Below are positions 6,940 to 13,106 of a stretch of DNA of 21,099 nucleotides, in pieces. This DNA is from Ruminococcus callidus. Lineage in GTDB: Bacteria > Bacillota > Clostridia > Oscillospirales > Ruminococcaceae. The notes beneath the pieces are model-generated. The model was not told where the DNA came from. It was given only the letters and a program-made list of their open reading frames with translations, and did not search any database. The translations under genes and the position numbers were made by a program. Location of the stretch: positions 1 through 21,099 of the forward strand of contig NZ_JAJFCK010000041.1 in NCBI RefSeq assembly GCF_020709055.1. Direction: 5' to 3'. Every line of letters begins with the position of its first letter. The first letter of the stretch is position 1.

Positions 6940-7977
6940 ATGTCAGTTAAAGTTGCTATTAATGGTTTTGGCCGTATTGGTCGTCTCGCATTCCGTCAGA
7001 TGTTCGGCGCAGAGGGTTATGAGGTTGTTGCTATCAACGACCTGACCAAGCCTTCCATGCTGGCTCACCTGCTGAAGTATGATACTGCACAGGGCGGTTA
7101 CGCAGGCAAGATCGGCGAGAACAAGCACACTGTTTCCGCTGATGATGAAGCTGGTACTATCACAGTAGACGGCAAGACCCTGAAGATCTATGCAAAGGCA
7201 AACGCTGCTGAGCTGCCGTGGGGCGAGATCGGTGTTGACGTTGTTCTGGAATGCACTGGTTTCTACACTTCCAAGGCAAAGGCACAGGCTCACATCGATG
7301 CTGGTGCAAAGAAGGTTGTTATTTCTGCTCCGGCTGGTAGCGATCTGCCGACTATCGTTTACAACGTAAACCACAACACCCTGACCGCTGATGACAAGAT
7401 CATCTCTGCTGCATCCTGCACTACCAACTGCCTGGCTCCGATGGCAAAGGCTCTGAATGACTACGCTCCGATCCAGAGCGGTATCATGAGCACCATCCAC
7501 GCTTACACTGGCGACCAGATGATCCTGGACGGCCCGCACAGAAAGGGTGACCTGAGAAGAGCAAGAGCTGGCGCTGCTAACATCGTTCCGAACTCCACCG
7601 GTGCTGCAAAGGCAATCGGTCTGGTTATTCCGGAACTGAACGGCAAGCTGATCGGTTCTGCACAGCGTGTACCGGTTCCGACTGGTTCCACTACCATCCT
7701 GACCGCTGTTGTTAAGGGTGCAGACGTAACTGTTGACGGCATCAATGCTGCTATGAAGGCTGCTGCTACTGAGTCCTATGGCTACAACGAAGAGCCGATC
7801 GTATCTTCTGACGTTATCGGCATGAAGTATGGTTCTCTGTTCGATGCAACTCAGACCATGGTTTCCAAGATCGCTGATGATCTGTACGAAGTACAGGTTG
7901 TTTCTTGGTACGACAACGAGAACAGCTACACCAGCCAGATGGTTCGCACCATCAAGTTCTTCGCTGAACTGGCATAA
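6940..7977 (+). CDS. gap: Glyceraldehyde-3-phosphate dehydrogenase, NAD-type
   Basis: This 345-aa cytosolic enzyme converts glyceraldehyde-3-phosphate, NAD and phosphate to 1,3-bisphosphoglycerate in glycolysis. The N-terminal Rossmann motif INGFGRIGR is at residues 7-15. D34 in AINDLT is the residue that usually selects NAD over NADP. The active-site segment [13 protein letters not shown] places the catalytic cysteine at C160. HAYTGDQ and the C-terminal [15 protein letters not shown] are also present. The gene uses a narrow set of codons (GGT, GCT, CTG, GTT, AAG), like the PFL genes and unlike most neighbours, as expected for very high expression. AGGAGG precedes the ATG. It appears monocistronic, between its own promoter and a strong terminator. 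No phosphoglycerate kinase gene follows. Confidence 0.97.
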
Positions 7978-9271: not shown

Positions 9272-9300
9272 TTGACTTAGTAGTTGAGATGTGTTATTAT
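9272..9300 (+). promoter_or_regulatory. Sigma-A promoter of the pyruvate formate-lyase operon
   Basis: TTGACT (9272-9277) and TATTAT (9295-9300) are separated by 17 bp. The predicted start near 9307 gives an unusually long leader of about 130 nt. Confidence 0.7.
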
Positions 9301-9437: not shown

Positions 9438-11525
9438 ATGGCAGAGTCTATGACAAAGGCATGGGAAGGTTTCGTTGATGGTGCTTGGAGCAAGACAATC
9501 GACGTCCGTGACTTCATTCAGAAGAACTACACACCGTATGAAGGTGATGAGAGCTTCCTGGCTGGTCCGACCGAGGCTACCACAAAGCTGTGGGGCGAGG
9601 TAATGGATCTGTTCCAGAAGGAGCGGGAAAACGGCGGCGTTCTGGATATGGACACCAAGATTGTTTCGACGGTAAACTCTCACGAAGCCGGCTATATCGA
9701 CAAGGATCTGGAAACCATCGTTGGTTTGCAGACCGATAAGCCGTTGAAGCGTTCTCTCCAGCCGTTCGGCGGTATCCGTATGGCAGAAGAGGCTTGCAAG
9801 GCCTATGGCTATGAAGTTGATCCGGAGATCAGCTACATCTTCACACACTACAGAAAGACACACAACGAGGGCGTATTCGATGTTTACACACCGGAAATGC
9901 GTGCTGCTCGTCATAACGCAATCATCACCGGTCTGCCGGATGCTTACGGCCGTGGCCGTATCATCGGTGACTATCGCCGTGTTGCTCTGTACGGTATCGA
10001 CCGCCTGATCGAAGACAAGAACTATCAGAAGGCTGTTACTTCCGGTACAATGACAGAAGAAAAGATTCGTCTGCGTGAGGAACTGGCAGAGCAGATCAAG
10101 GCTCTGAAGGCTCTGAAGGCAATGGCTGCTCGTTATGGTTATGATATTTCCGTACCGGCTGCCAACGCAAAGGAAGCAATCCAGTGGACTTATTTCGCAT
10201 ATCTGGGTGCAGTAAAGGATCAGAACGGCGCTGCAATGAGCCTGGGACGTACCTCTACTTTCCTGGATATCTACATTCAGCGTGATCTGGACAACGGCAC
10301 TCTGACTGAGGAACAGGCACAGGAATATATCGATCACTTCATCATGAAGCTGCGTATGGTAAAGTTCGCAAGAACTCCGGAATACAACGCACTGTTCTCC
10401 GGCGACCCGCAGTGGGTTACCGAGTCCATCGGCGGTATGGGTATCGATGGCAGAACACTGGTTACTAAGAACAGCTTCCGTTATCTGCATACTCTGGAAA
10501 ACCTGGGTACTGCTCCGGAGCCGAACCTGACCGTTCTGTGGTCTAAGAGACTGCCGAAGGCATTCAAGCACTACTGTGCAAAGCTCTCCATCAACACCTC
10601 TTCCTTCCAGTATGAGAACGATGATCTGATGCGTGTGACACACGGCGATGACTATGCAATCGCTTGCTGCGTATCCTCCATGCGTGTTGGTAAGGAAATG
10701 CAGTTCTTCGGCGCACGTGCAAACCTGGCAAAGTGCCTGCTGTACGCCATCAACGGCGGTGTTGACGAAAGACTGGATGCAAAGACCGGTAAGCACAATC
10801 AGGTTGGTCCGAAGTATCGTCCGGTAGAAGGCGATTATCTGGACTACGATGATGTTATGGCAAAGTACACCGACATGATGGCTTGGCTGGCTAAGCTGTA
10901 TGTAGATACCCTGAACTGCATCCACTACATGCACGACAAGTATTGCTACGAGGCAATCCAGATGGCACTGCACGACAGAGATGTAAAGCGTTACTTCGCA
11001 ACTGGTATCGCTGGTATGTCTGTTGTTGCTGACTCCCTGTCTGCAATCAAGTATGCAAAGGTTAAGTGCATCCGTGATGAATTCGGCGTAGTAACCGACT
11101 TTGAAGTAGAAGGCGACTTCCCGAAGTACGGCAACAACGACGACCGTGTCGACAGCATTGCTGTTGAGATCCTGGACAAGTTTATGGACATGATTCGCAG
11201 CAACTACTGCTACAGAGGCGGCGTTCCGACCACTTCTATCCTGACCATCACTTCCAACGTTGTATACGGTAAGAAGACTGGTAACACTCCGGATGGCCGT
11301 AAAAAGGGTCAGCCGCTGGCTCCGGGCGCAAACCCGATGCACGGCCGTGACACCCACGGTGCAGCTGCTTCTATGGCTTCTGTTGCTAAGCTGCCGTGGA
11401 AGAACGCACAGGATGGTATCTCCAATACCTTCACCATCATCCCGGATGCTCTGGGTAAGGATTCCAAGGTATTCGCTGGCGATATCGATATCGAATCCAT
11501 CCGCAAGGAAATGGAAAGCAAGTAA
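9438..11525 (+). CDS. pflB: Pyruvate formate-lyase catalytic polypeptide lacking the glycyl-radical domain
   Basis: This 695-aa protein is the PFL barrel that splits pyruvate and CoA into acetyl-CoA and formate. The family N-terminus ([20 protein letters not shown]) supports the ATG at 9438, with AAAGGGGA upstream. The catalytic tandem cysteines are C410-C411 in AIACCVSSM, equivalent to C418-C419 of E. coli PflB, followed by [15 protein letters not shown]. The C-terminal part keeps [22 protein letters not shown] in family form and reaches [13 protein letters not shown]. There it leaves the family alignment for a 16-residue acidic tail ([16 protein letters not shown]) and stops. The whole glycyl-radical domain (about 65 residues including G734 in E. 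coli) is missing and is supplied by the gene at 11826-12065. The narrow codon use indicates high expression. The stop is not a frameshift scar: no glycyl-domain remnant follows in any frame before 11826. Confidence 0.95.
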
Positions 11526-11559
11526 GGCTCTTTTTTGAAAAAGAAAGGAGGCGGATGTC

Positions 11560-11769
11560 ATGGCAGAACATGAGGTCAAAGAACAGGATAAGTCGGATGA
11601 ACTGGTGGATATGATCGAAAAGCTGATGGAAGACGGCAGCGGTCATTTGACCATTTCGGAGGACGATCTGATGGGCGGAGGCATGAGTGTGAAAACCTAT
11701 CGCAGTATGGACTGCTCCAAGGGAAACATGGCATGCTGTCAGCCTACTGAGTTTATAGAGGACGAGTGA
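11560..11769 (+). CDS. Unrecognised 69-aa acidic protein between the two PFL parts
   Basis: I do not recognise this protein. It is strongly acidic with a predicted amphipathic helix at about residues 11-24 (KSDELVDMIEKLME), a Gly-rich turn with GGGMS at about 39-43, and three cysteines near the end (C52, C59, C60 in DCSKGNMACC) that could bind a metal or be redox active. It has no signal peptide or membrane helix. AAAGGAGG sits at good spacing before the ATG. It lies 34 bp after the catalytic PFL gene and 56 bp before the glycyl-radical gene, on the same strand. From position alone it is a candidate assembly factor, tether or protector for the split enzyme. That role is inferred. Confidence 0.75.
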   Translation: MAEHEVKEQDKSDELVDMIEKLMEDGSGHLTISEDDLMGGGMSVKTYRSMDCSKGNMACCQPTEFIEDE

Positions 11770-11825
11770 GTTTTCACTAGTCCCCGGCAACCCGTATCTG
11801 TAAATTCTGCGAGGAGGAATTTATC

Positions 11826-12065
11826 ATGGCAAATGAAAAGCAAATTGAAAATCTGGTTGGCCTGCTGGACGGCTATGCTGAAAAAGGCGGTCACCACCTG
11901 AACGTAAACGTACTGAATCGTGAAACTCTGCTGGATGCTCAGCAGCATCCGGAAAAGTATCCGCAGCTGACCATCCGTGTTAGCGGATACGCTGTAAACT
12001 TCATCAAGCTGACCAAGGAACAGCAGGATGATGTTATCACCAGAACTTTCCACGCTTCTCTCTAA
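11826..12065 (+). CDS. Stand-alone glycyl-radical subunit of pyruvate formate-lyase (GrcA/YfiD-like)
   Basis: The 79-aa product is essentially only the C-terminal domain of PFL. After an 8-residue lead (MANEKQIE) it begins NLVGLLDGY, exactly where the catalytic polypeptide stops matching. It continues through [16 protein letters not shown] and PEKYPQLTI to RVSGYAVNF, where G54 (codon 11985-11987) is the predicted radical glycine. It ends [13 protein letters not shown], like the end of E. coli PflB. It is shorter than E. coli GrcA (127 aa), a spare part that rescues oxygen-cleaved PFL, and here the main enzyme has no such domain of its own. GAGGAGG precedes the ATG, and codon use matches the catalytic gene. 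It should insert in the barrel of the 695-aa protein and be activated by the activase at 12274. Confidence 0.95.
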
Positions 12066-13076: not shown

Positions 13077-13106
13077 AAAAACCGCCTTGTCAAAGGCGGT
13101 TTTTTC
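13077..13106 (+). terminator. Intrinsic terminator of the PFL operon
   Basis: ACCGCCTT (13081-13088), loop GTCA, AAGGCGGT (13093-13100), extended by A/T pairs and followed by a T tract to 13106. It overlaps the promoter of the next operon. Confidence 0.9.

Follow-up and report, generated by a model that had tools for sequence, protein, structure and literature searches.

A probable operon for an obligately split pyruvate formate-lyase and a conserved third protein in Ruminococcus callidus

Here, we describe four consecutive genes, all on the plus strand, that most probably (we put it at roughly 85%) form an operon for an obligately split pyruvate formate-lyase (PFL). They lie in a 21,099-nucleotide stretch of Ruminococcus callidus DNA (the window) and encode a catalytic core, a third small protein, a stand-alone glycyl-radical subunit and the PFL-activating enzyme (Table 1). 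The sequences support an enzyme divided at the boundary between core and radical domain, with the small part as a separate gene. A first-pass annotation of this DNA had noticed the split, and that observation is confirmed; its interpretation is partly supported, and it missed two of the four genes, namely the third conserved open reading frame (ORF) and the activase gene. The activase, whose gene comes next after that of the radical subunit, scores 289.8 bits with TIGR02493 (cut-off 231.75). Good ribosome-binding sequences can be read ahead of both small genes, and a search of the window against Rfam returned no match. The consensus scan behind the promoter-like and terminator-like sites of Table 1 found 8 and 10 such sites in the scanned stretch, where 4.5 and 4.4, respectively, would be expected by chance.

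Table 1. Features of the putative split PFL operon, in positions of the window.
Feature	Position	Strand	Basis or remark
Promoter-like site TTGACT-17-TATTAT	9272..9300	+	Upstream of operon; consensus scan only
PFL catalytic core, 695 aa from ATG	9438..11525	+	TIGR01255 match, C410-C411, without radical domain
Ribosome-binding sequence AAAGGAGG of third gene	11544..11551	+	Direct sequence reading
Third gene, 69 aa	11560..11769	+	34-member alignment, profile match to radical domain
Ribosome-binding sequence GAGGAGG of radical-subunit gene	11811..11817	+	Direct sequence reading
Stand-alone glycyl-radical subunit, 79 aa, G54 in RVSGYAVNF	11826..12065	+	NF038360 GrcA3, Gly_radical 50-106
PFL-activating radical-SAM enzyme, 254 aa	12274..13038	+	TIGR02493
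Terminator-like hairpin, 12 pairs, 3' of activase gene	13077..13104	+	Consensus scan only

The two parts of the enzyme are complementary in the alignments. The core reaches 1111.3 bits with the PFL model TIGR01255 (cut-off 994.2) over model positions 1–665 of 744, and the small protein supplies the remainder past position 665. On E. coli PflB the core covers residues 5–680 and the small ORF 681–758, with no gap and no overlap, and the 106 positions of Pfam Gly_radical are shared out in the same way, 2–50 in the core and 50–106 in the small ORF. This bears out the first-pass annotation, which had described a core with C410-C411 and no radical domain, a 79-residue gene consisting of that domain, and a single alignment point at which the two meet and add up to one PFL; in the alignment to PflB and GrcA that it had proposed, the loop RVSGYAV is also shared with YfiD. 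The adjacent catalytic cysteines are thus found in the core polypeptide and the glycyl-radical loop in a separate ORF, which makes this a split variant and not a canonical PflB. The core carries a C-terminal extension of 18 residues, in the window without a cysteine. The small protein passes the cut-off of NF038360 (GrcA3; 164.7 versus 158 bits) and stays below those of TIGR04365 (GrcA; 100.2 versus 170) and GrcA2 (109.1 versus 145).

Could a sequencing or assembly error, or the decay of a pseudogene, have broken a continuous frame? The core and radical-subunit genes do happen to share a frame in the window, but they are separated by several in-frame stops and by a further conserved gene. When species genomes were scanned with the 79-residue protein, 556 loci passed and the best 80 were fetched; a PFL core lies upstream of the radical-domain gene in 68 of these 80, with the remaining 12 having no core within reach, some of them at contig ends. 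The enzyme is split in 66 of the 68 and single-chain in two (L020 and L073), and isolates are among the fetched loci (R. bicirculans chromosome II, R. albus, Eisenbergiella tayi and Lachnotalea glycerini). The same break in 66 of 68 independent loci, from the best 80 of 556, is attributable neither to chance nor to a local assembly error, a concern that the first-pass annotation had itself raised, and base-level reading found the parts separated by stops in nine of nine further genomes. A broken frame is already refuted by these relatives, and we give it practically no weight. The single frames of 790–881 aa seen in some split genomes (e.g. E. tayi) were rejected as fusions, as stops part the two genes in L040, L072 and the nine further genomes.

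A further explanation, which we consider very improbable, is that the 79-residue protein is a spare part in the manner of GrcA/YfiD, that an intact PFL elsewhere does the work and that the 695-residue gene is a remnant. The NCBIfam label of the family, autonomous glycyl radical cofactor, would suit such a role, as would the second radical-domain gene found elsewhere in some split genomes (G024, G025, G026, G029 and G338). However, a full-length TIGR01255 match is lacking in 29 of the 30 genomes with fetched loci that were searched, many of them drafts, in eight of eight split Oscillospirales genomes and in 16 of 16 split Lachnospirales genomes, which argues against a spare part. The one exception among the 30 (G020, with locus L020) is a re-fused enzyme, and in R. 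bicirculans the only two matches are the core and the radical domain, with no intact PFL. Of 117 Oscillospirales genomes, many of them drafts, 53 exceed the cut-off: 8 are split, 44 have an uninterrupted gene and 1 (G145) has an internal stop; split and intact PFL occur together in none of the 53, bearing in mind that drafts can miss genes. The 116 Lachnospirales genomes, subject to the same reservation, give 76 over the cut-off, 15 split and 61 intact, with a sixteenth split genome (G299) that is fragmentary; none of the 16 split genomes has an intact PFL and none of the 76 has both forms. Nor does the core look like a remnant, being conserved and codon-optimised (window versus L001, dN 0.09 and dS 0.93). 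The claim of the first-pass annotation that the radical domain exists only as a separate protein holds for the relatives, in which the split form stands alone, and by way of those relatives would extend to the source cell.

The second radical-domain gene of G024, G025, G026, G029 and G338 is itself a stand-alone gene away from the core, and in L054, L070 and other loci a radical-domain gene has no core nearby. Possibly, the second gene of some split genomes is a true spare part, serving the split enzyme.

How often did the split arise? A quick maximum-likelihood tree (midpoint root, no bootstrap) was built from 63 split and 37 intact cores, 100 in all, leaving out L111 and rows with fewer than 600 aligned residues. 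All 63 split cores and the two single chains form one group (SH-aLRT 95), with the other 35 intact enzymes outside it, so that one origin of the split followed by two re-fusions is the simplest reading; many lineages have retained the split. The two single-chain PFLs, both from Lachnospiraceae (L020:3925-6234 and L073:3907-6234), are nested in the split clade and are apparently re-fused; the linker in L020 is cysteine-rich, TPDVTCGCEEVTCAVD. Also within this clade, which otherwise consists of Bacillota, sit rows from Gastranaerophilales/Melainabacteria (L028, L035, L042, L045, L075 and others) with a split PFL and a CGCCEG-type tail on the core; their position suggests that the split PFL moved between phyla by horizontal transfer.

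Of all the parts, the third protein, whose gene accompanies the split state, is the least known. Its first half resembles the glycyl-radical domain: the first 30 columns of its alignment match the radical-domain profile with an hhalign probability of 96 (E 4.2e-9), and the matched part is the helix and strand that precede the loop. Where the glycyl loop would stand, the second half has a motif D/E-C...A-C-x-x-P, with C52, C59, C60 and P62, and an acidic end. M1, C52, C59 and P62 are invariant in 34 aligned third proteins, all of which have the Cys/Cys/Pro motif where the RVSGY loop would be. The protein has no match in Pfam or NCBIfam; a database search found 863 proteins, the relatives are named "hypothetical protein" among the matches listed, and a Pfam domain occurs in none of the 120 listed of the 863. 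Calmodulin-like matches (best 0.026) were dismissed as chance similarity to the acidic stretch.

Half of the 66 split loci (33, from the best 80 of 556) have the third gene between their two PFL genes, and in 12 of these 33 its start codon lies within the end of the core gene, an arrangement that the window does not have. We searched the 116 Lachnospirales genomes for it with E values up to 1e-8; it occurs in 16, which are exactly the split ones, and the 61 genomes whose only PFL is intact all lack it (Fisher p 7e-17, with kinship ignored). A near full-length match occurs in 3 of 197 Oscillospirales genomes, all three split. Three of seven pairs of third proteins have a usable dS and give dN/dS of 0.17, 0.12 and 0.13; dS is saturated in three other pairs and 3.05 in the fourth.

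Split loci that lack the third gene often carry cysteines on the core itself. A core tail with at least two cysteines is present in 24 of the 33 split loci without a third gene, and neither feature in 9 of the 66 split loci (both counts from the best 80 of 556); since 24 and 9 of the 66 lack it, a split PFL can do without the third protein. In seven of those nine (L029, L033, L034, L043, L046, L047 and L049) it is the activase gene that separates core and radical gene, and these seven form one group of the tree (SH-aLRT 85). Among the 117 Oscillospirales genomes, the six split ones without a third gene all have a tail of the form C..GC..PTL or close to it (L087, L129–L132 and L137), and third gene and cysteine tail replace each other several times on the tree. 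Scored against a model of the end of the third protein, 5 of 21 tails reach 21.8–28.1 bits, followed by L087 (14.2), L086 (12.8) and L129 (11.4), with the other 13 at 4.9 or below and the best of 1000 shuffles at 11.9. Only part of the tails is thereby shown to be homologous to the end of the third protein, and a single homologous motif for all of them was rejected, as 13 of the 21 are indistinguishable from shuffles.

Codon usage offers a prediction of how much of each part is made. We took each locus's own core as the reference and scored the core itself half against half. Over 28 loci, codon adaptation then averages 0.73 in the core and 0.72 in the radical subunit, against 0.57 in the third protein, which lies below the radical subunit in 26 of the 28; the activase averages 0.54 (19 loci). 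In the window, with a GAPDH reference, the values are 0.76, 0.69 and 0.37, and 0.34 for the activase. This suggests that the radical subunit is abundant, roughly as much so as the core, and that the third protein is scarce, its level being close to that of the activase. The GAPDH-like gene of the window (6940-7977), named by eye, has the strongest codon bias among the 17 window genes compared.

What would such an enzyme do with three parts? The 79-residue subunit could dock on the core through its N-terminal helix and strand, in the place of barrel strand 10 of the E. coli enzyme; the activase would set the radical on G54, and the docked G54 would pass it to C410-C411. As the first-pass annotation supposed, oxygen damage might then be made good cheaply, and the ratio of the two parts might set activity. 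According to the available text of PMC8683613, E. coli PFL cut at residue 695 shows no detectable YfiD binding and 32-fold less radical, is fully active once activated, and has residues 696–733 proposed as the recognition element. The natural split core is entirely without the 696–733 stretch, the radical subunit keeps the helix ahead of the strand, and the third protein presents a second copy of helix and strand; from this combination we propose a placeholder for the same groove. Tentatively, and as the likeliest of its possible roles, the third protein would imitate the first half of the radical domain at substoichiometric amounts: it would fill the groove on cores without a radical subunit, keep them loadable and bring in a cysteine pair shielding or reporting on the active site; a low-copy protein of this kind may aid loading and exchange, with its thiol pair as guard or sensor. 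More speculative still is a wider scheme, in which splitting lost the covalent tether that kept the radical domain close by, and a half copy with a thiol end, as a separate protein or, in other lineages, as a cysteine tail of the core, became a placeholder. It would sit in the groove of empty cores, let the radical subunit in and protect the catalytic cysteines or the radical from oxygen; the result would be a three-part exchangeable enzyme and not a spare-part rescue. Two structure models were poor (mean pLDDT 55 and 64).

Other roles for the third protein deserve consideration. It might belong to the enzyme permanently, as a third subunit completing the barrel (e.g. on the second protomer of the dimer), in keeping with the tight tie of its gene to the split state and the overlap with the core gene in 12 of 33 loci. 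A permanent subunit would also be consistent with proposed half-of-sites activity, and half-site reactivity is called hypothetical in the available text of PMC12338860. However, the codon usage of the third protein is near that of the activase and not that of the core, and its gene is missing from 33 of 66 split loci (best 80 of 556), both of which argue against this role, and we regard it as unlikely. An inhibitor or radical quencher, whose thiols give hydrogen to the glycyl radical as a reversible shut-off before oxygen destroys the enzyme, would account for the invariant cysteines at the place of the glycyl loop and for the low predicted expression; we rate it no higher. Still less probable is a functionless leftover of a duplicated radical domain: its resemblance to half of the gene next door and its absence from one split locus in two would fit, but purifying selection in the three pairs with usable dS, cysteines that are invariant over 34 sequences and an association with the split state that is without exception among the sampled Lachnospirales all stand against it.

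Oxygen cuts glycyl-radical enzymes at the radical, and E. coli keeps a spare radical domain beside its whole PFL. In a large group of gut anaerobes, the radical domain seems to have become a permanently separate, detachable subunit. How is such a loose part loaded, and how is the empty enzyme protected? The operon would offer a natural system for the loading, activation and exchange of a free glycyl-radical subunit, for which present work, as described in the available text of PMC8683613, uses artificially truncated E. coli PFL. The third protein, a possible placeholder in the groove, supplies a concrete candidate for whatever loads or guards the enzyme, and the operon is small enough to be rebuilt in vitro.

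The first-pass annotation had been in doubt whether an obligately split PFL had been described. Others have already met its parts, in the NCBIfam family GrcA3 and in PDB 38lb, and have begun to study them; a paper on a split PFL did not turn up in a literature search that fell short of most subscription journals, and the accessible part of PMC11528403 contains nothing on split enzymes. New here are the third protein and the tie between it and the split. PDB 38lb, listed like 38la as "Formate acetyltransferase", is a natural 718-residue core with no radical domain and with a cysteine-bearing tail; over 679 residues it equals P0121 (718 aa), at a reported 100 percent with one difference seen by eye, and the matches in 38la/38lb include no third protein and no radical-domain chain. 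The top-listed relatives are mostly 693–698 aa long, the named ones are from Olsenella and Thermophilibacter, which we take to be Actinomycetota, and six of six sequences end with cysteines. Separately, P0122 is an 821-aa PFL entry with an internal repeat of about 126 residues that ends in DCACCEPNLSVDEAE and is possibly an assembly artefact.

Compared with canonical PflB (E. coli 1h16 and 2pfl; TIGR01255), the split enzyme has the same core sequence and cysteine pair and, with the small gene, the same whole length (5–758), but its radical domain is separate and its core ends in an additional acidic tail that the intact PFLs compared do not have. With GrcA/YfiD (PDB 6owr; TIGR04365) it shares a free radical domain and the same RVSGYAV loop. 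YfiD, however, has 127 residues with a long N-terminal part, the match starting at its residue 68, whereas the 79-residue protein is without that part, keeps the helix before the strand and serves a core that has no radical domain of its own. GrcA/YfiD goes with a whole PFL, in contrast to the relatives studied here, of which 29 of 30 locus genomes have none. The third protein belongs to no named family, its N-terminal half being homologous to the radical domain. The small protein exceeds the cut-off of NCBIfam NF038360 (GrcA3), a label that implies a spare part, yet its context points to an obligate subunit.
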